From Spirosoma fluviale (GTDB taxonomy: Bacteria; Bacteroidota; Bacteroidia; Cytophagales; Flexibacteraceae), in the NCBI GenBank assembly GCA_945883425.1, contig CAMCXM010000024.1, forward strand, positions 1-32,894: a DNA stretch of 32,894 nt, read 5' to 3'. The translations under genes and the position numbers were made by a program. The notes under the pieces are model-generated. The model searched no databases. It worked only from the letters and a program-made list of their open reading frames with translations, and had not been told where the DNA came from. This document shows, piece after piece, positions 4,824 to 26,056 of this stretch (within the stretch, counting starts at the first letter, position 1; every line of letters begins with the position of its first letter).

Positions 4824-6002
4824 TCAAGATTTACGGATCTGAAGGAAGCTCATGAAAAAACTGAACGTCGCTACCTGAAATCCTAAAAGAATAGATGTAA
4901 CCGCCGGGATCACTTTTCTAAGCACAATCTGTGGATTCAGCGGTCCAAAATTCTGCAGTTCCCAATAATGCAGTGCTGTAAAAGAAAGCCACATTCCAAA
5001 AATTATGAATGACCCGGCCAGAATCAATCCTTTTTCAAGTGTAAACCAATTGAGTGAAATTCCGGACTGAATGGACAGTCCTTCCCTACGGGCAAAAGCC
5101 TGACTCATAATATAAAATGCGATCATTTGCGATCCCACCAATACCAATCCATTGGAATAGAGAAGCGTAGAAACATCCAGTCTGATGGATTGAAAAGGAA
5201 TCACCGATCGAAGCAAGAGACTGGAAAAAAGCAGCCCTAAAAACACAAACGTGAGGCCCGGGTAAAAGAAAAGCCAGCGGGGACTGAAAAGGAGTAAAAA
5301 CCGCAAATGCCGCCAACCATCTGTCCAGGTATTTAAATGTGGAGGCCGGCCTCTTCCGTCTTTGTACAAATGTACCGGCACTTCAGCCGACGGCAAATTG
5401 AGCAGAGATGCTTTTACAACCATTTCCGAAGCAAACTCCATTCCAGCTGTGGTCAGTTTCATTTTATCAAAAGCCTCACGGGTAAACCCCCGCATTCCGC
5501 AGTGAAAATCCCTGAAATGATTCTGGAAAAACAACCTTCCGATGAATGACAGAACAGGGTTTCCCAGATAGCGGTGTAAAAACGGCATGGCATCTTTGTC
5601 AATTCCTCCTTTGAAGCGGTTTCCCATCACAAAATCGGCACCCGCTTTCCAGGACTCAATGAATGGTTTGATTTCCAGAAAGTTGTAACTGTCATCGCCA
5701 TCTCCCATAATGATAAACGACCCCTGGCTTTGTTCCACGCCACCCCGAATGGCCGCTCCATAACCACTGGCAGCAACAGACACCACTCTTGCTCCTGCAT
5801 TTTCAGCTGCTTCGATAGAACCATCCTGGCTGCCGTTGTCGGCAACAATAATTTCACCTGATACCTGAAGGTCCAAAAATGCCTGCCTTGCTTTTTGAAC
5901 GCAAACGGCAATCGTTCTGACCTCATCGAGGCAAGGAATGACGATGGAAATCGCTGGTTTTTCTGGTGTCACTTTGGTGGTTTGAAAGGCAAAAAAGTTC
6001 AT
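4824..6002 (-). CDS. Membrane-anchored family 2 glycosyltransferase (polyprenyl-phosphate sugar synthase-like)
   Basis: This is a 392-residue protein with an N-terminal GT-A domain. SIVIPCLDE near residue 20 and VADNGSQDGS are nucleotide-sugar binding segments, GDGDDS near residues 99-104 is the metal-binding region, and GNRFKGG and HCGMRGF are conserved in the DPM1/dolichol-phosphate-glucose synthase group. From about residue 235 the C-terminus carries roughly four hydrophobic helices, so the enzyme is a multi-pass inner-membrane protein. By analogy it would transfer a sugar to undecaprenyl phosphate for glycan or glycolipid assembly; donor and acceptor cannot be read from the sequence. It is transcribed away from the alpha/beta hydrolase gene, with about 80 bases between the two starts. 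It is upstream of glmS on the same strand but glmS has its own promoter box. Confidence 0.85.
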   Translation of the reverse strand: MNFFAFQTTKVTPEKPAISIVIPCLDEVRTIAVCVQKARQAFLDLQVSGEIIVADNGSQDGSIEAAENAGARVVSVAASGYGAAIRGGVEQSQGSFIIMGDGDDSYNFLEIKPFIESWKAGADFVMGNRFKGGIDKDAMPFLHRYLGNPVLSFIGRLFFQNHFRDFHCGMRGFTREAFDKMKLTTAGMEFASEMVVKASLLNLPSAEVPVHLYKDGRGRPPHLNTWTDGWRHLRFLLLFSPRWLFFYPGLTFVFLGLLFSSLLLRSVIPFQSIRLDVSTLLYSNGLVLVGSQMIAFYIMSQAFARREGLSIQSGISLNWFTLEKGLILAGSFIIFGMWLSFTALHYWELQNFGPLNPQIVLRKVIPAVTSILLGFQVATFSFFMSFLQIRKS

Positions 6003-17495: not shown

Positions 17496-18746
17496 ATGGC
17501 CAAAGCAGGCAAAATCATCAACGACCCGGTCCACGGTTTTATCACCATTCCACCGGGACTCATTCAGGATGTGGTGGATCATCCTTATTTTCAAAGGTTA
17601 CGAAGAATAAAGCAACTGGGGTTGACCGATCTGGTATATCCCGGTGCGCATCATACCCGTTTCCACCACGCCATTGGTGCCATGCATCTGATGGGCCTGG
17701 CCATCGAAACGTTGCGGGAAAAAGGTCATTCTATTTCGAAGGAAGAAGAAGAAGGTGCCCGGCTGGCAGTTTTGTTGCATGATGTTGGACACGGTCCTTT
17801 CTCTCACGCTTTGGAAAGCAGTATTTTACAGGGTGTGCCTCATGAAATGCTGTCTTTGGCCTTCATGGAAAGATTGAATTTTCTGTTTGGGCACCGGCTG
17901 AATCTGGCCATTGCCATTTTTAAAGGAGAGTACCACCGTCCGTTTTTTAATCAGTTGGTATCAGGTCAGCTCGACATCGACCGGATGGATTATCTCCGGC
18001 GGGATTGCTTTTTTACCGGTGTGGCAGAAGGATCCATTTCGGCAGAACGGATTCTGAAAATGATCGACATTTCTGGTGACGAACTTGTGGTGGAAGAGAA
18101 AGCGATTTATTCGGTAGAAAACTTTCTGAGTTCCCGGCGCCTTATGTACTGGCAGGTGTATCTTCATAAAACAACAGTGAGTGCCGAAGAGATGGTGATT
18201 CAGTTGATGCGAAGAGCCCGGTTTCTGATGGATGGAGGTGTGCGTCTGACCATGCCCCCGGCACTTGTTCCCTTTTTTGAAAGGAGCTTCGGTTTGCCCG
18301 ATTTTCTTTCCGATCCCTCTCATCTGAATGCATTTTCCATGCTGGATGATTATGATATTTGGTATTGCATAAAAAACTGGGTGAGTCATCCTGATTTTGT
18401 GTTGTCATTTCTGGCGAGGGGATTGATGGACAGAAGGTTGCTGAAGGTTCGTATTTCAGCAGAGTCTGTCGATGCCCAGTCATTGGAAGAACTGCGAAAA
18501 GCCTATGAAATCGATCTGGGTATTTCAGCTGAAGATGTCACCTATCTTGTGTTTGAAAAGGAAGTTTCCAATTCAGCCTATATTTCAGGAGGAAACCGGA
18601 TCAACGTAAAGTACCGAAATGGAGAGATTCTGGATCTTTCTCAAACCACTGATTTGCCGAACATAAATGGTATGACAACCGTTGTGAAAAAATATATTGT
18701 CTGCCAACCCAAAACCATATCTTTGCAAACTTTTGCGGGAAAATAA
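17496..18746 (+). CDS. HD-domain phosphohydrolase (SAMHD1/dGTPase-like)
   Basis: This is a 416-residue cytoplasmic metal-dependent phosphohydrolase. The N-terminus has KIINDPVHGFI (6-16), conserved at the start of this family and fixing the start codon. The HD metal site is built from FHHAIG, LLHDVGHGPFSH (near 93-104) and QLDIDRMDYLRRD, the last giving the final aspartate. This is the arrangement of dNTP triphosphohydrolases such as SAMHD1 and of the YpgQ/YdhJ-like group. The substrate here is unproven; dNTPs are the best guess. It lies directly upstream of lpxD in a cluster seen in many Bacteroidota. The promoter for lpxD lies in its last 50 bases, so the lipid A genes can be read with it or alone. 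Confidence 0.9.
   Translation: MAKAGKIINDPVHGFITIPPGLIQDVVDHPYFQRLRRIKQLGLTDLVYPGAHHTRFHHAIGAMHLMGLAIETLREKGHSISKEEEEGARLAVLLHDVGHGPFSHALESSILQGVPHEMLSLAFMERLNFLFGHRLNLAIAIFKGEYHRPFFNQLVSGQLDIDRMDYLRRDCFFTGVAEGSISAERILKMIDISGDELVVEEKAIYSVENFLSSRRLMYWQVYLHKTTVSAEEMVIQLMRRARFLMDGGVRLTMPPALVPFFERSFGLPDFLSDPSHLNAFSMLDDYDIWYCIKNWVSHPDFVLSFLARGLMDRRLLKVRISAESVDAQSLEELRKAYEIDLGISAEDVTYLVFEKEVSNSAYISGGNRINVKYRNGEILDLSQTTDLPNINGMTTVVKKYIVCQPKTISLQTFAGK
18697..18725 (+). promoter_or_regulatory. Internal promoter for the lpx genes
   Basis: TTG (18697-18699), 18 bases, then TATCTTTG (18718-18725), a perfect -7 box. It lies inside the 3' end of the HD gene, 24 bases before the lpxD ATG. Confidence 0.65.
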
Positions 18747-18749
18747 AGA

Positions 18750-19835
18750 ATGGAGTTTTCTGCCGGGCAAATAGCCGCCCTACTTCAAGGCGAGCTACAA
18801 GGCGATTCACAGTTGAAGATCAATAATGTTGCCAAGATAGAGGAGGGTAATCCCGGCTGTATATCTTTTCTGGCAAATCCTAAGTATGAACCATTTATTT
18901 ACACCACACAGTCTTCAGTTGTGCTGGTGTCAAAATCCTTTGAAGCAAAACAACCAATCTCAGCTACACTCATTCGTGTAGAAGATCCATATACCGGATT
19001 TACCTCACTTCTGGAAGAATACAGTCGTTTGACCACTCCAGTTAAACTTGGTGTGGAAGAACCGTCATTTATTGGAGCTGGAAGCTCGACAGGTGAAGGC
19101 ATTTACCGCGGTGCGTTTTCGTACATCGGGCAAAACTGCACCATTGGAAAAAACGTCAAAATTTACCCGCAGGTATTTATTGGCGACAACGTTACCATAG
19201 GAGACCATACCGTCCTTCATCCCGGAGTAAAAGTACTTAAGGGCTGCCAGATCGGAAGCCATTGCAACATTGCCGCCGGTACCGTGATCGGAAGTGATGG
19301 TTTTGGTTTTGCACCACAGGCCGATGGAACATATAAAAACATTCCTCAATTAGGGAATGTCATCATCGAAGATCATGTGGACATCGGTGCCAATACCACC
19401 ATCGACCGGGCTACAATGGGATCGACCATTATCCGGAAGGGTGTAAAACTTGACAATCTGATCCAGATAGCGCATAATGTGGAAGTCGGTGCCAACACGG
19501 TAATCGCTTCTCAAGCGGGTGTTTCGGGTTCAACCAAAATCGGAGAAAACTGCGTTATTGGTGGACAGGTAGGTGTTGTAGGTCACATCAAAATGGCCAA
19601 CCGTACATCTGTTGGAGCTCAATCTGGAGTGAGCAAAGAAGTGAAAAAGGAAGGTACGATTCTGTTCGGAAGTCCTGCCATTGAATATGGCAATCAAATG
19701 AAATCCATAATTGTCTTTAAACAACTTCCGGAACTTCTAAGGAAGGTTCAGGATCTTGAAAGGGCATTTGGCGAAAAAGTGAAAAATGAAAGTTCAAATC
19801 CGGGCAAAAGCACGCCGGAATCAGCAATATTATGA
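18750..19835 (+). CDS. lpxD: UDP-3-O-(3-hydroxyacyl)glucosamine N-acyltransferase
   Basis: The enzyme adds the second 3-hydroxyacyl chain (from acyl-ACP) to UDP-3-O-acyl-glucosamine, step three of lipid A synthesis, in the cytoplasm. The 361 residues comprise an N-terminal uridine-binding domain (about 1-100, with [11 protein letters not shown]). A left-handed beta-helix of hexapeptide repeats follows (about 105-310, for example [20 protein letters not shown]), then a C-terminal helix. His242 in QIAHNVEVG matches the catalytic histidine. The C-terminal tail ([14 protein letters not shown]) is low complexity and probably disordered. The stop overlaps the lpxC start by four bases (ATGA). Confidence 0.97.
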
Positions 19836-21241
19836 ACACCAAACAGCATACGATTAAAGAGCGATTTACACTCGAGGGTGTAGGTCTGCACACCGGAAAA
19901 GATGCTACAATGACGTTTGTGCCGGCCGACATCAACCATGGAATTAAGTTCCAGAGAGTTGATTTACCAGGGCAACCGATCGTTGATGCCGATGTCGATT
20001 ACGTTGTCGATCTCAGCCGTGGCACCACCATCGAACACAATGGCGCCAGGGTGAATACGGTGGAGCACACAATGGCTGCTCTGGTGGGAACGGAGGTAGA
20101 TAACGTCCTCATTCAACTGAATGGCCCGGAGCCTCCGATCATGGATGGAAGTTCGATGCCATTTGTGCTTGCCATTGAAAAGGCAGGTTTTGAGGAGCAG
20201 AATGCTATGCGGAACTTTTTCGATGTTACGGAGGCCATCAGTTACAAAGATGAATCCCGAAATGTCGAAATCGCTGCTTTGCCATTGGACGACTACCGCC
20301 TAACCGTTATGGTGGACTACAACTCACCCGTGCTGGGAAGTCAGCATGCTTCTCTAACGGATATCCGTGACTTTGGAAAAGAGATTGCTTCCTGCCGCAC
20401 GTTTTGTTTTCTCCATGAGCTGGAAATGCTCTACAAACAAGGGCTCATTCAGGGTGGAGATCTGAACAACGCCATCGTGGTGGTTGACCGTGTGGTAGAA
20501 GACAGCGAACTGCAATACCTCGCTAAGCTTTTCAACAAAGAAACGGTTGAAGTGAAGAACGAGGGAATTCTCAATAATGTGGAGCTTCGGTATAAGAATG
20601 AACCTGCCCGTCATAAACTTCTGGACCTTGTAGGCGATCTTGCTTTGGCAGGCCGTCCAATTAAAGGACAGATTCTGGCGGCAAGGCCAGGTCATGCAGC
20701 CAATGTGGCCTTTGCCAAGAAGCTGAAAAAGGTAATGAAGGAGCAGGAGAAAAAGGCCCTTCCCAAAGGAATTCCAATGTACGATCCTTCCGTCCAACCT
20801 TTGTTGGATGTGAATCAGATTTACAAGATGCTTCCTCACCGTTATCCATTCTGCCTGATCGATAAAATTTTCCATCTTGATGAAACGTCGGTTGCCGGAA
20901 TAAAAAATGTAACGATTAATGAACCTTTTTTCCAGGGACATTTTCCAGGAAATCCGGTTATGCCTGGCGTGTTGCAGATTGAAGCGATGGCGCAAACAGG
21001 GGGTATTCTGGTTCTAAGCACGGTTCCTGATCCGGAAAATCACTGGACATACTTTCTGAGTATCGAAAATTGCCGTTTCAAAAAGATGGTTCTGCCAGGC
21101 GACACGGTGGTTTTTAGCTGTGAACTTTTGGCACCAATAAAGCGAGGTATTGCAAAAATGCACGGACGGGCTTATGTTGCAGGCAATATTGTATGCGAAG
21201 CTGTGATGTCAGCGTATATAGTGAGGAAGGAGACTAAGTGA
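19832..21241 (+). CDS. lpxC/fabZ: Bifunctional LpxC deacetylase / FabZ dehydratase fusion
   Basis: Two enzymes are joined in 469 residues. Residues 1-310 are LpxC, the zinc amidase that deacetylates UDP-3-O-acyl-GlcNAc, the committed step of lipid A synthesis. It shows GVGLHTG, zinc-ligand His79 in [15 protein letters not shown], and HKLLDLVGD with His261 and Asp265 (the E. coli His238/Asp242 pair, same spacing). Residues about 320-469 are FabZ, 3-hydroxyacyl-ACP dehydratase, with His336 in [19 protein letters not shown] and Glu384 in IEAMAQTGG. The fusion is characteristic of Bacteroidota and puts the branch between lipid A acyl use and fatty-acid elongation in one polypeptide. Its TGA overlaps the lpxA ATG by one base. 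Confidence 0.97.
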
Positions 21242-22053
21242 TGAACCAACCATTAGCGAATATTCACCCGGATGCCAGGATTGGCAATAATGTTCGGATC
21301 GAGCCTTTTGCCACCATTTATGGCGATGTAGAAATTGGCGATGACTGCTGGATCGGGCCTAACGCCGTACTTATGGACGGGGCCCGTCTCGGCAAAGGCG
21401 TTCAGATTTTTCCAGGGGCGGTTGTTTCATCCATCCCACAGGATCTGAAATTTGCAGGCGAAAAAACAACAGTAGTAATTGGAGACAACACCGTAATCCG
21501 GGAATTTGTCACCATCAGCCGTGGAACCATCGACAGGTTCAAAACTGAAATTGGCAAAAACTGTCTCATCATGGCCTACGTTCACGTGGCACACGATTGC
21601 CTGATCGGTGATGGTTGCATCATTGCAAACGCTGTACAGCTGGCGGGACACGTGGTGATCGAAGACTTTGTTGTTATAGGCGGAACCTCAGCGGTTCACC
21701 AGTTCGTTAAAATCGGAGCACATGCCATGGTTTCTGGTGGTTCTCTGGTACGGAAAGATGTTCCTCCCTATGTGAAAGCCGGACGAGAGCCACTTTCCTA
21801 TGTGGGTGTGAATTCGGTTGGTTTACGCCGGCGGAATTTCAGTAATGAGAAAATCGAAGAAATTCAGGATCTGTTCCGGATTATTTATCTGGAAGGAAAC
21901 AACTATACCAAAGCCTGTGATATGATTGAGCTTGAATTCACACCGTCAAAAGAACGGGATGAGATCATCAACTTCATCCGCAGCTCTGATCGTGGAATTA
22001 TGAGGGGATATGGCGGAAGCTCAAACGGAAAGAGTTCTGCTCCTGTGATTTAA
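21241..22053 (+). CDS. lpxA: UDP-N-acetylglucosamine 3-O-acyltransferase
   Basis: The enzyme catalyses the first, reversible lipid A step: transfer of 3-hydroxyacyl from ACP to the 3-OH of UDP-GlcNAc, in the cytoplasm. The 270 residues form a left-handed beta-helix from hexapeptide repeats (about 1-185), with the catalytic histidine at His118 in VHVAHDCLIG (E. coli His125). A helical C-terminal domain follows from GLRRRNFSNEKIEEIQ. A GTG directly before the ATG could also serve as start; the ATG at 21241 is preferred because it forms the TGATG junction with the preceding stop. It is the last gene of the cluster; a strong terminator follows after about 20 bases. Confidence 0.96.
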   Translation: MNQPLANIHPDARIGNNVRIEPFATIYGDVEIGDDCWIGPNAVLMDGARLGKGVQIFPGAVVSSIPQDLKFAGEKTTVVIGDNTVIREFVTISRGTIDRFKTEIGKNCLIMAYVHVAHDCLIGDGCIIANAVQLAGHVVIEDFVVIGGTSAVHQFVKIGAHAMVSGGSLVRKDVPPYVKAGREPLSYVGVNSVGLRRRNFSNEKIEEIQDLFRIIYLEGNNYTKACDMIELEFTPSKERDEIINFIRSSDRGIMRGYGGSSNGKSSAPVI

Positions 22054-22102: not shown

Positions 22103-22258
22103 TGCCCAAAGATCAGGCTGGTTATTTTTTTAGTGCTTGAAATGTTGGACTTTCTCAATTTTAGGGAGGAATTCTGAAGACTACTTTTCAATCATGGTTT
22201 TTACTCACCCGGCGGTCACATTTTTGGATCTCCGTATTTCAATCTGTAGAAAATAAAA

Positions 22259-22283
22259 AAAGCCATACACAAGGTATGGCTTT
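22259..22283 (-). terminator. Intrinsic terminator of the small lipoprotein gene
   Basis: AGCCATAC (22261-22268) pairs with GTATGGCT (22274-22281) around a five-base loop; flanking A and T bases extend the stem. On the minus strand it is followed by TTTTTTTATTTT. It lies 24 bases past the lipoprotein stop. Confidence 0.85.
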
Positions 22284-22306
22284 GATTATAGTGAATTCAG
22301 AATTGA

Positions 22307-22519
22307 CTAGTGACCAGCTGGAGCAGCAGCAGAATCAGCAGCAGGAGCAGTAGCAGCTGAATCAGCAACTGGAGTAGCAGCTGAATCTACAGTAGCAGCA
22401 TCCATTGTAGTGCTTTCAGCAGCTGTTGAATCAGTAGCTGTAGATTCTTCGTGCTTTCCACCGCAAGAATACATAGCAAGAGTACCAGCAACCATTAACA
22501 ACGCGAATAACTTTTTCAT
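22307..22519 (-). CDS. Small Ala/Ser/Thr/Asp-rich lipoprotein with tandem repeats
   Basis: This is a 70-residue protein. Residues 1-18 form a lipoprotein signal (MKKLFALLMVAGTLAMYS) with Cys19 as the lipidation site. The residues after it (GGKHEES) have the lysine-plus-acidic character of reported Bacteroidota surface-export signals, so surface exposure is possible (inference). The mature part is almost entirely Ala, Ser, Thr, Asp, Glu, Pro and Val, with imperfect 8-9 residue repeats of DSAATPVA type, and is probably disordered. At DNA level a 15-base word (agtagcagctgaatc) recurs exactly 24 bases apart (22349 and 22373). It has a near-consensus promoter, an A-rich leader and its own terminator, so it looks like a strongly expressed single-gene unit. 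I do not recognise a function. Confidence 0.85.
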   Translation of the reverse strand: MKKLFALLMVAGTLAMYSCGGKHEESTATDSTAAESTTMDAATVDSAATPVADSAATAPAADSAAAPAGH

Positions 22520-22556
22520 TTTTGTGTTTTTATTGATTCTTTAAAAATTTTGGATG

Positions 22557-22587
22557 CAAAAGTATGCCTCGTTTCCAAATTCACAAA
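22557..22587 (-). promoter_or_regulatory. Strong promoter of the small lipoprotein gene
   Basis: On the minus strand: TTTG (22587-22584), 19 bases, then TACTTTTG (22564-22557), both perfect matches to the Bacteroidota consensus. It is followed by an AT-rich leader of about 30 bases without Shine-Dalgarno. Confidence 0.75.
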
Positions 22588-22594
22588 AAAACCA

Positions 22595-23908
22595 TCACTT
22601 TTTTCTGAAAAATATATTAATCGGTACACCTTCAAGGTTGAAATTCTCCCGTAAACGATTCTCCAGAAACCGCTGATAGGGTTCTTTGATATACTGCGGC
22701 AGGTTGCAGAAAAATGCGAATGAAGGCGTGTAAGTGGGTAATTGGGTGATAAACTTAATCCGGATCACCTTCCCCTTGCTGCTCGGTGGCGGATACTTTT
22801 CGATCTCAGGTAATATTTTATCATTTAGTTGTGAAGTGGCCAGTTTTGTGGTCCGGTTTTCAAAAACCTGGATCGCTTTCTCGATCGCCTGGAAAATTCG
22901 TTGCTTTTCATACACCGACACAAACAAGATGGGTGTGTAGTCAATCGGGGCCAGTCGTTCCCGGATTTCATTTTCAAATTTCCGGGCAGAGTTCGAATCC
23001 TTGCCTTCTACCGCATCCCATTTGTTCACCAGAATCACGATACCCTTCCGTTTCTTTTCAGCCAGTGAAATAATCGAAACATCCTGTGCCTCGATTCCTC
23101 TGGTGGCATCCAGCATCACGATACAGACGTCGGAATTCTCCAGCGACTGCAACGAACGTAAGACCGAGTAAAATTCGATCTGGTGGTCTTTCAGCTTTGT
23201 CTTCCGGCGGATACCGGCTGTGTCGGTCAGAATAAATTCTTTTCCAAATGCTTTATAATGTGTGTCGATCGAATCACGGGTTGTTCCGGCCACATCCGTC
23301 ACAATGTTCCGGTTTTCGCCTAACAGCAGATTGATGAAACTTGATTTACCAACGTTGGGTCTTCCCAGAACAGAAATCCTTGGAATTCCTTCGTAAGGAT
23401 CTTCCAGCCCTGGATCTTCAAAGTGACCCACTACGGCATCCAGCAATTCACCCGTTCCGTTTCCGGTCTGCGAAGAAAGTGGGAAAATCTCCCCGATTCC
23501 CAGTCCGTAAAATTCTCCGGCCAGGTGTCCTTTGTCGTGTGTATCGGCTTTGTTCACCGCAACATAAACTGGCTTATTGCTCCTTCGGAGAATGTTGGCG
23601 AAATCCTGGTCGTAACCCGTAACTCCATCGTTGACATCCACCATGAAAATGATGACGTCGCATTCTTCCAACGCCATCTCCACCTGATCTCGGATGGCCT
23701 GTTCAAAAACATCTTCGGAACCAACGACATACCCACCGGTATCGATGATGGTGAAAAACTTCCCGTTCCATTCAGAAAAACCGTAATGGCGGTCACGGGT
23801 TACCCCCGCTTCATTGTCCATAATGGCTTTGCGGGCACCGACGAGTCGGTTGAAAAAGGTCGATTTGCCCACATTGGGCCGACCTACGATGGCGACTATA
23901 TTGTTCAT
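22595..23908 (-). CDS. der: Ribosome-assembly GTPase Der (EngA)
   Basis: This is an essential tandem GTPase that acts in maturation of the 50S ribosomal subunit. The 437 residues are the normal length. The first G domain has GRPNVGKST (8-16), DTGGY and NKAD. The second has GRPNVGKSS near 182, DTAGIRRK and NKWD. A KH-like C-terminal domain follows (about 350-437, with FITQLPTYTPSFAFFCN). The start ATG at 23908 leaves three residues before the first strand, as usual. It lies 93 bases downstream of feoB on the same strand. I see no clear terminator or strong promoter between them, so some read-through from feoAB is possible. Confidence 0.97.
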   Translation of the reverse strand: MNNIVAIVGRPNVGKSTFFNRLVGARKAIMDNEAGVTRDRHYGFSEWNGKFFTIIDTGGYVVGSEDVFEQAIRDQVEMALEECDVIIFMVDVNDGVTGYDQDFANILRRSNKPVYVAVNKADTHDKGHLAGEFYGLGIGEIFPLSSQTGNGTGELLDAVVGHFEDPGLEDPYEGIPRISVLGRPNVGKSSFINLLLGENRNIVTDVAGTTRDSIDTHYKAFGKEFILTDTAGIRRKTKLKDHQIEFYSVLRSLQSLENSDVCIVMLDATRGIEAQDVSIISLAEKKRKGIVILVNKWDAVEGKDSNSARKFENEIRERLAPIDYTPILFVSVYEKQRIFQAIEKAIQVFENRTTKLATSQLNDKILPEIEKYPPPSSKGKVIRIKFITQLPTYTPSFAFFCNLPQYIKEPYQRFLENRLRENFNLEGVPINIFFRKK

Positions 23909-24001: not shown

Positions 24002-26056
24002 TCAGGACAATAGGTGAAACACCCAGGTGCTTAGTCCAAATGACAGCCCTGTCATATAAATAAGTTGCAGAAATGGCCATTTCCAGCTTCCGGTTTCTCT
24101 GTACGAAACGGCGAGGGTGCTCATGCATTGCATGGCAAAAATGTAAAATACAAGTAGAGATGTGATCACTGCAGGAGTGAAAACCGGCAAACCGGTGGAA
24201 GGATTGCGGGCAGCTTCCATTTTGGATCGAAGTAACCCGGGTTCGCCATCTGACCCGGAAGCATAAAGGATGGACATAGTTCCGACAAAGACTTCTCTTG
24301 CCGCAAATGAACTGATGAGAGCTACTCCAATTTTCCAGTCAAAACCCATAGGCTGAATGGCAGGTTCAATCCATCGTCCTGCGATTCCGGCGTAACTGGC
24401 TTCCAATTGCCGGGAGGCCACCAGATGGTCTTTTTCGGTATCAGTGAGGTTCATGGATGCGGCTTCCACTTCAGCATGTACTGCTGCCTTTTCGATGGAA
24501 TCACCAGGTCCGAATCCGGCCAGATACCAGAGAATTACAGAAATCGCCAGAATAATCTTACCGGCTTCGAGCACAAATGCCATGGATTTCTGATAAACCG
24601 AAATGCCCAGGTGTTTCCAGTTCGGAAGTTGGTAGGGTGGAATTTCCAAAAGAAAGGAACCGTTTTGTTTTCCCGGCAGAAAATGGTGAAGGATAAATGC
24701 CGTAATAACTGCGCCTAACAATCCAATAAGGTAAAGGCAAAATAATACAAGACCCTGCAATGGAACTGGCCCCCAGAAGACCCGTGCCGGAATCAACAAA
24801 GCGATGAGCAACGTAAAGACGGGTAATCGGGCAGAGCAGCTCATCAGCGGAGTTACAAAGATGGCGATGAGGCGCTCTCTCTGGCTTGTCATGCTACGGG
24901 TTGACAGAATGGCCGGGACCGCACAGGCAACTCCAGAAATGAGCGGGACGATGGCTTTACCGCTTAATCCAATTTTACCCATCAGCCTGTCAAGCAAAAT
25001 CATAACTCTGGCCATGTAGCCCGATTGTTCCAGAAGTCCGATCAATCCGAAAAGAATGGCGATCTGTGGAATGAAAATGACAATTCCCTGGATACCGGCC
25101 AGAATGCCTTCCAGAAGAAATCGTTTCAGTATTCCCTCAGGCAGAATTTGTTCAAGAAATGAACCAATTGACCCGACCATGTTTTCGATCCATTCCATGG
25201 GATAGCTGGCCAGCTCGAATATGCCTTCAAAGACGATGAGCAAAACCACAAGCATCAGCACATATCCAAAAATTGGGTGTAACGCGATGCGGTCGAATTT
25301 GAATCCGGAGTCTTCTTTTCCTCCCGAATTCCGTTCTACCTTTTCCGTTATTTTTTTGATCATTTGATAACGGAACACGGTTTCTTTCGCCAGGGCCAGC
25401 TTCGGATCAGTGTCTGAAGCTGAAACTGTCGACTTTTCTTGATTAGCACCGCCAGAAACCCAATTCAGCCAGTTGATGTACTGATCTGCTTGTTCAGTAC
25501 CCCAGGATGAAAAACCAGCTGCCAGTTCGGGTTTGAAAATGCGGAACAAAGGCACACTGGCTTCAGGGAGTTTTGCTTTTAATTCCTTCACACCCTCACC
25601 AGTCCGTCCGTTTACAGGCACTACTGGACAACCCAATTCGTTTTCCAACGCTTTGATGTCCAGACTGATTCCTCTTTTTTCAGCCACGTCCGTCATCGTC
25701 AGTGCTACCAGACAAGGTTTTTTCAGATCGGCCAGTTGTGAAAAGAACAACAGATTTCTCGAAAGATTGGAAGCATCGACCACCACTACAAATGTCTGGT
25801 CAGTTTCCAGGCCGCGGATGATTTCATTGAACACGACGGTTTCATCCGGTGATTTTGGCACAAGGGAATAGGAGCCAGGCAAATCAGTTATTTCATACGA
25901 AATATGGTCGGATTCGAACCGGCCGGTTTTCTTTTCAATCGTGACACCAGCGAAGTTTCCTATTTTCTGCTGCAGACCGGTTAATTGATTGAAGAGGGAC
26001 GACTTCCCGATATTGGGATTGCCAACAAGTGTTAACTGCCGGCGGACCTGGTTCAT
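24002..26056 (-). CDS. feoB: Ferrous iron transporter B
   Basis: This is the inner-membrane Fe(II) uptake protein. The 684 residues start with a G domain: GNPNIGKSS (12-20), the switch segment GNFAGVTIEKK, DLPGSYSL and TMTD as the G4 motif (NxxD in most FeoB proteins). A helical GDI-like spacer follows to about residue 230. A membrane domain (about 260-684) has the two gate repeats, with IVPLISGVACAVPAI and TPLMSCSARLPVFTLL, and a later FAAREVFVG segment. An insertion of roughly 40 residues rich in charged residues precedes FAAREVFVG. The gene overlaps feoA by four bases (ATGA), so the pair is translated together. No FeoC is present, as is usual outside gamma-proteobacteria. Confidence 0.96.
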   Translation of the reverse strand: MNQVRRQLTLVGNPNIGKSSLFNQLTGLQQKIGNFAGVTIEKKTGRFESDHISYEITDLPGSYSLVPKSPDETVVFNEIIRGLETDQTFVVVVDASNLSRNLLFFSQLADLKKPCLVALTMTDVAEKRGISLDIKALENELGCPVVPVNGRTGEGVKELKAKLPEASVPLFRIFKPELAAGFSSWGTEQADQYINWLNWVSGGANQEKSTVSASDTDPKLALAKETVFRYQMIKKITEKVERNSGGKEDSGFKFDRIALHPIFGYVLMLVVLLIVFEGIFELASYPMEWIENMVGSIGSFLEQILPEGILKRFLLEGILAGIQGIVIFIPQIAILFGLIGLLEQSGYMARVMILLDRLMGKIGLSGKAIVPLISGVACAVPAILSTRSMTSQRERLIAIFVTPLMSCSARLPVFTLLIALLIPARVFWGPVPLQGLVLFCLYLIGLLGAVITAFILHHFLPGKQNGSFLLEIPPYQLPNWKHLGISVYQKSMAFVLEAGKIILAISVILWYLAGFGPGDSIEKAAVHAEVEAASMNLTDTEKDHLVASRQLEASYAGIAGRWIEPAIQPMGFDWKIGVALISSFAAREVFVGTMSILYASGSDGEPGLLRSKMEAARNPSTGLPVFTPAVITSLLVFYIFAMQCMSTLAVSYRETGSWKWPFLQLIYMTGLSFGLSTWVFHLLS

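Follow-up and report, generated by a model that had tools for sequence, protein, structure and literature searches.

The window analysed here, a stretch of 32,894 nucleotides forming part of a 3.75-Mb draft genome of Spirosoma fluviale, carries a real and old gene for a lipoprotein of 70 residues, in whose short tail Asp-Ser motifs of the kind used in Bacteroidota O-glycosylation recur in series. We lean towards the view that the product is a strongly expressed, lipid-anchored protein with a disordered tail that would act as an anionic bristle, probably O-glycosylated and most likely placed on the periplasmic face of the outer membrane. Its abundance and lipidation, the presence of glycans, the side of the membrane and the role as a bristle are read from computed features, namely the gene, its signal, lipobox, promoter and terminator, its codon bias, motif enrichment and synteny.

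The layout of the locus (Table 1) agrees with much of the first-pass annotation, which had proposed a tiny lipoprotein with a perfect promoter, an A-rich leader and a clean terminator. The lipobox, M-Y-S-C, was read by eye and closes a lipoprotein signal peptide with its Cys at position 19, so that the protein can be written MKKLFALLMVAGTLAMYS-C-GGKHEESTATDSTAAESTTMDAATVDSAATPVADSAATAPAADSAAAPAGH. The promoter is an exact TTTG-N19-TACTTTTG, and each of the five genomes of the genus examined, counting the window, has it in the corresponding position. According to PMC6847099, the Bacteroidota consensus is TTTG/TANNTTTG and an A at -3 is a positive determinant. Exact TTTG-N19-TANNTTTG matches occur twice on the two strands of the window, where shuffling predicts 0.09; the other one lies at 5367-5397 (-). 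The terminator is a GCCATAC-CTTGT-GTATGGC hairpin with a T run (fold z -4.2), and by eye each of the four relatives in the genus likewise has a hairpin with a T run behind the gene, the stem being nearly identical in one and different in three. Rfam returned nothing in the window at gathering scores, and Pfam nothing for the lipoprotein at E 0.01.

Table 1. Features of the lipoprotein locus in the window.
Feature	Position	Strand	Basis
Intrinsic terminator of the lipoprotein gene	22253..22289	-	inverted repeat and fold
Lipoprotein gene, 70 aa, ATG start	22307..22519	-	ORF and relatives
C-terminal His70 (...APAGH)	22310..22312	-	end-residue statistics over 43 genera
Motif 4, D62-S63-A64	22328..22336	-	sequence
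Motif 3, D53-S54-A55	22355..22363	-	sequence
Motif 2, D45-S46-A47	22379..22387	-	sequence
O-glycosylation-type motif 1, D30-S31-T32	22424..22432	-	sequence
Charged linker without motif, residues 20-29 (GGKHEESTAT)	22433..22462	-	motif position statistics
Cys19, probable lipid acceptor	22463..22465	-	invariant in alignment of 6
Signal peptide MKKLFALLMVAGTLAMYS	22466..22519	-	best conserved part in alignment of 6
A-rich leader, no evident Shine-Dalgarno, A at -3 and -6 (5' end, the transcription start, inferred from the promoter)	22520..22552	-	sequence
Bacteroidota-type promoter	22557..22587	-	exact pattern match, kept in genus
-7 TACTTTTG of the promoter	22557-22564	-	pattern match
-33 TTTG of the promoter	22584-22587	-	pattern match; 19-base spacer after
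der (EngA GTPase), upstream neighbour	22595..23908	-	TIGR03594, 513 bits

The gene begins 75 bases downstream of the end of der on the same strand, and since Der lies upstream of a homologue on the same strand in 27 genera of the order (counting one locus per genus), the locus must be old. A search with the whole protein gave a match at E <=1 in 49 of 59 genomes, our own included, although the weak end of these matches reflects chance or signal-peptide similarity. Der was present in 56 of 137 loci tested, a number in which the same gene is counted several times and which includes two loci without the lipoprotein and 28 from outside the order; L002 and L029, which hold no lipoprotein, were dropped. 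Among the 43 genera found with the signal peptide alone, 23 show the linkage to Der; for the 28 high-scoring homologues beyond the order (L190-L217), about 1500 bases on either side contained no Der. Pairs of genus members differ in their first 20 codons by 0-6 synonymous and 1-5 amino-acid changes, and the lipoproteins are identical between L004 and L032 and between L005 and L033. Small lipoproteins of this type also lie next to one another, as a group of three in L013 and a pair in L027. In the window, the gene for FeoB (24002-26056, -) precedes der in the same orientation, while a row of lipid A genes (an HD-domain protein, LpxD, an LpxC-FabZ fusion and LpxA; 17496-22053, +) converges on the lipoprotein gene.

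The promoter kept across the genus, together with codon adaptation, suggests that the lipoprotein is probably abundant and strongly expressed, which lends indirect support to the high expression proposed at first. Its codon adaptation index is 0.817, above all 287 ORFs of at least 120 aa sampled from the window and 20 other stretches of the same genome (median 0.607, maximum 0.748). The reference consisted of 13 genes which, judged by their N-termini, encode ribosomal proteins and elongation factors. With an earlier and less clean reference that included non-ribosomal ORFs, no recoding out of 5000 with matched composition scored as high as the real gene. The Ala codons illustrate the bias, as GCT serves for 19 of 20 compared with a background of 20%, and GCT is also the main Ala codon in the six relatives tested; the repetitive nature of the tail may contribute. 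The same usage accounts for the repeat that had drawn attention to the gene. The 15-base word GATTCAGCTGCTACT does recur exactly 24 bases apart (22349-22363 and 22373-22387), but an exact repeat of at least 15 bases arose in 487 of 1000 synonymous recodings with the gene's own codon usage, compared with 6 of 1000 when background codons were used. Codon bias acting on a repetitive protein therefore accounts for the DNA repeat, which we reject as a sign of slippage. The suggestion that repeat number varies between strains is likewise weakened, as it varies little between the species of the genus (4, 5, 4, 4 and 4 motifs in proteins of 64-70 aa).

The tail of the window protein comprises 51 residues with prolines and four D-S-[A/T] motifs spaced 15, 8 and 9 residues apart, and it was modelled as disordered (pLDDT <50, from a shallow alignment of six sequences). 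Within the genus, S and T interchange in the first motif while D30 is constant, and one motif of the relatives, M-D-T, reads M-D-A in our own genome (G000). The O-glycosylation site of Bacteroidota is described as Ser or Thr after Asp, with L, I, V, T, A or S as the usual next residue (PMC12871550), and we therefore counted D[ST][ALVIMTS] against expectations from shuffles within each tail. Because circularity had to be avoided, homologues were collected with a query limited to the first 20 residues, which is blind to the tail. From 194 genomes of the order, this search retained one protein of at most 130 aa in 43 of 48 matched genera (42 without our own), the other five offering only longer frames; genus g78 is represented by its second-best match, and four unrelated-looking proteins (L163, L172, L183 and L186) were kept.

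Across the 42 other genera the motif occurs 112 times against 21.4 expected (sd 3.9; maximum of 1000 shuffles, 34), or 111 against 21.0 once the four unrelated-looking proteins are left out. D[ST] as such is found 117 times against 36.2, whereas E[ST] stands at chance (48 against 51.3) and the reversed [ST]D is rarer than expected (20 against 36.4), and hence neither composition nor acidity explains the excess. E[ST]x is slightly raised (34 against 24.1, z 2.4), far less than the Asp motif. In the 43-genus set, 114 of 118 D[ST] pairs are followed by A, L, V, I, M, T or S. The excess persists in a 36-genus subset that lacks seven genera with short matches (88 against 17.3 without our own genus), in 27 genera collected with queries or profiles that themselves contain the motif (92 against 19.1) and in the 27 der-linked genera (81 against 13.1, maximum 27), where E[ST]x reaches 32 against 19.2 (z 3.3). 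In genus g37, the member of the blind set has no motif and other species have two (L009, L126).

The position of the motifs and the end of the tail are also patterned. Of the 28 proteins that have at least two motifs, 27 place the first at a distance of 10 or more residues after the Cys; in shuffles the same measure had a mean of 10.5, and the largest of 5000 was 19. The tail ends in His or Lys in 30 of 43 genera, where 4.4 are expected. Lys is the last residue in 21, and His in nine, although it contributes only 9 of the 2199 other tail residues. Six of these nine end exactly in ...APAAH, and a terminal ...APA[AG]H is common to seven genera whose tails otherwise differ (L142, L147, L148, L157, L164, L181 and L017). 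Our guess is that the terminal His protects the Ala-rich end from tail-specific proteases.

A similar preference runs through the exported proteins of the genome. In 51 proteins with a signal peptide there are 181 motifs against 88.6 expected (z 14.4), whereas 218 proteins without one hold 209 against 215.0 (z -0.4), and controls with E, N and the reversed motif are near chance. These counts cover ORFs of at least 120 aa in 21 stretches, with genes and signal peptides called by simple in-house rules rather than a trained predictor; capping proteins at 1000 aa and adding four lipoproteins gave 163 against 84.0, a ratio of 1.94. An excess confined to exported proteins is the signature that a working general O-glycosylation system would be expected to leave in protein sequences. 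The window tail, with four motifs or 7.8 per 100 residues, exceeds every one of the 287 sampled ORFs, whose maximum is 2.75 per 100. Among the 15 motif-densest ORFs listed, the largest number of motifs, 56 D-[ST]-x, belongs to an exported protein of 2376 aa (L236:7386-14516, -, contig C11). A metG-wzx-glycosyltransferase locus is known from Bacteroides and from genera formerly included in it (PMC12871550); in our genome metG lies on contig C15, and no glycosylation locus was seen in a plain list of the neighbouring ORFs.

A strict link between a motif-bearing tail and genome-wide enrichment was examined in nine genomes and is not established. Exported proteins are clearly enriched in three of five genomes with motif tails (our own, G000, 1.94; G007, 2.03, z 4.7; G014, 1.63, z 3.0), and the signature is absent from G106 (1.22, with 1.18 in the reversed control) and G029 (0.70), so that a motif tail is no reliable predictor of exported-protein enrichment. 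Of the four genomes with Glu-rich tails, three are not enriched (G108, 0.50; G187, 0.98; G025, 1.07) and one, G020, is (2.00), although its cytoplasmic set is raised as well (1.38, z 3.0). The exported proteins of G108 (L260-L269) even seem depleted in D-[ST]-x, 15 against 29.8, as if the motif were avoided, and those of G029 are likewise low (37 against 52.9). The proposal that the lipoprotein is a glycosylation target thus gains from the statistics of the blind set, of the der-linked set and of its own genome, and is weakened by G029 and G106.

In the explanation that we favour, the signal would direct export and lipidation at Cys19, and the charged, motif-free linker of about 10 residues would set the Asp-Ser-[Ala/Thr] sites off from the membrane. 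The general system of Bacteroidota would then act in the periplasm and glycosylate as many as four Ser, turning the disordered tail of 51 residues into a hydrated bristle of negative charge on the outer membrane. The glycans would add negative charge, since the common glycan is given in a review as a trisaccharide of hexose, deoxyhexose and hexuronic acid (PMC12871550). At the der locus, tails with no motif or a single one occur in 7 of 27 genera, six of them plainly Glu-rich, which implies that motifs are not needed there; such Glu-rich tails may be another route to the same charged layer. One der-linked tail, that of L182 (genus g49), is Lys-rich and yet holds four A-D-S-[VI] motifs.

The strongest competitor, which we regard as a real but lesser possibility, is an anionic low-complexity spacer that bears no glycans, in which charge and disorder are selected and runs of Asp-Ser/Thr or of Glu are interchangeable. 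The Glu-rich tails of six genera at the same locus speak for it, as do the motif-rich tails of G029 and G106, whose genomes lack the signature. Charge, however, explains neither why Ser or Thr should follow Asp and not Glu, and follow rather than precede it, nor why a small set of residues comes next almost without exception.

A bolder form of the glycosylated bristle can be imagined, although we think it rather unlikely. The lipoprotein might be a minimal mucin of Bacteroidota: a dedicated and very abundant lipid-anchored carrier, built of a membrane-proximal linker, a series of O-glycosylation sites and a basic residue at the C-terminus, that would hold a large share of the cell's protein-linked O-glycan and coat a membrane face, with Glu-rich tails replacing glycans where the system has been lost or reduced.

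It is improbable, in our judgement, that the tail is a structural rod, with V-D-S-A-A-A-x as a helical heptad like that of Braun lipoprotein and D-S in a structural role. Runs of heptads do occur in L112, in L015 and in another order, where they make up much of the tail in homologues such as L191-L202; one homologue of that order was modelled as a long helix over residues 29-69 (pLDDT about 60-70, seven sequences), and G029 combines 7- and 8-residue V-D-S-A repeats (L026) with exported proteins that lack the signature. From the heptad tails and the helix model, D-S-A can be a structural unit in some lineages. The window tail, with its prolines, irregular spacing and predicted disorder, does not fit such a rod, and over 36 genera of the blind set D[ST] pairs are spaced anywhere from 2 to 40 residues apart.

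The side of the membrane is the weakest step of our explanation. The first-pass annotation had pictured a surface-exposed lipoprotein with strain-variable repeats, directed outward by KHEE after the lipid Cys. The charged KHEE is present, but it does not follow the Cys directly (C-G-G-K-H-E-E, with K at +4). The minimal signal for surface export is reported as C-X-K-(D/E)2 (PMC5080379), and next to the lipid Cys it occurs in none of the 43 proteins, one per genus and our own included, although a signal proper to this order may differ. Moreover, O-glycosylation in Porphyromonas gingivalis is described as strongly biased against abundant surface proteins (PMC8729774). On this bias and the missing strict signal, a tail facing the periplasm seems more likely than one on the surface. 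A surface repeat lipoprotein is therefore the least probable of the readings considered: the Lys and Glu after the Cys, and the 14 of 43 proteins that fit a loose in-house charged pattern, are outweighed by these two points and by a DNA repeat that codon usage accounts for.

In the Bacteroidota, the function of O-glycosylation is mostly unknown and its transferase undiscovered, according to a 2025 review (PMC12871550). A tiny, apparently abundant protein whose tail consists largely of putative acceptor sites would serve conveniently as a reporter for that transferase and as its acceptor substrate, and deleting its gene would be a direct test of what a glycan-rich membrane coat does.

Compared with known systems, the protein is a further example of a small lipoprotein type already known in Bacteroidota. 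Its residues 1-56 align to the whole of the 59-position NCBIfam profile NF050142.1 (PG1828 family lipoprotein, the closest named family) with 46.3 bits, below the membership cut-off of 50. Elsewhere in the genus, L004 passes (56.8) and L003 (35.6), L005 (47.9) and L006 (37.9) fall short, and the cut-off is passed in 13 of 291 genomes of the order and 20 of 395 in a sample of the phylum. The window protein is thus best called PG1828-like and not a formal member of the family, a comparison made through the profile of the family that is named after PG1828 of P. gingivalis. PG1828 is reported to be triacylated (PMC10126205, PMC11225709), to be a source of TLR2 signalling (PMC5693985) and to occur in the standard LPS preparations made from P. 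gingivalis; one study confirmed it in a gel band within 10-17 kDa (PMC7352132). The window protein has the lipoprotein signal peptide with Cys that belongs to the family, and the likeness extends to the tail, as 27 of the 28 high-scoring homologues outside the order, picked by profile score, hold at least two D-[ST]-x motifs; the position after der sets the window gene apart from them. In the mostly open-access literature searched, we did not find the family described as a serial O-glycosylation carrier, nor its statistically strong motif pattern.

With the general O-glycoproteins of Bacteroidota the protein shares D-(S/T)-(L/I/V/T/A/S/M) motifs behind an export signal and a genome with the matching signature. 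It differs in that its tail is little more than motifs and linker, with none of the 287 sampled ORFs as dense, and its glycans are putative. Braun lipoprotein, Lpp, is small and abundant, is built of continuous helical heptads and is joined to peptidoglycan through its C-terminal Lys. The window protein resembles it as a small, apparently abundant lipoprotein, and heptads appear in some homologues, but its own tail, as modelled from the shallow alignment, is disordered and irregular rather than a continuous run of heptads, and it ends in His instead of Lys.
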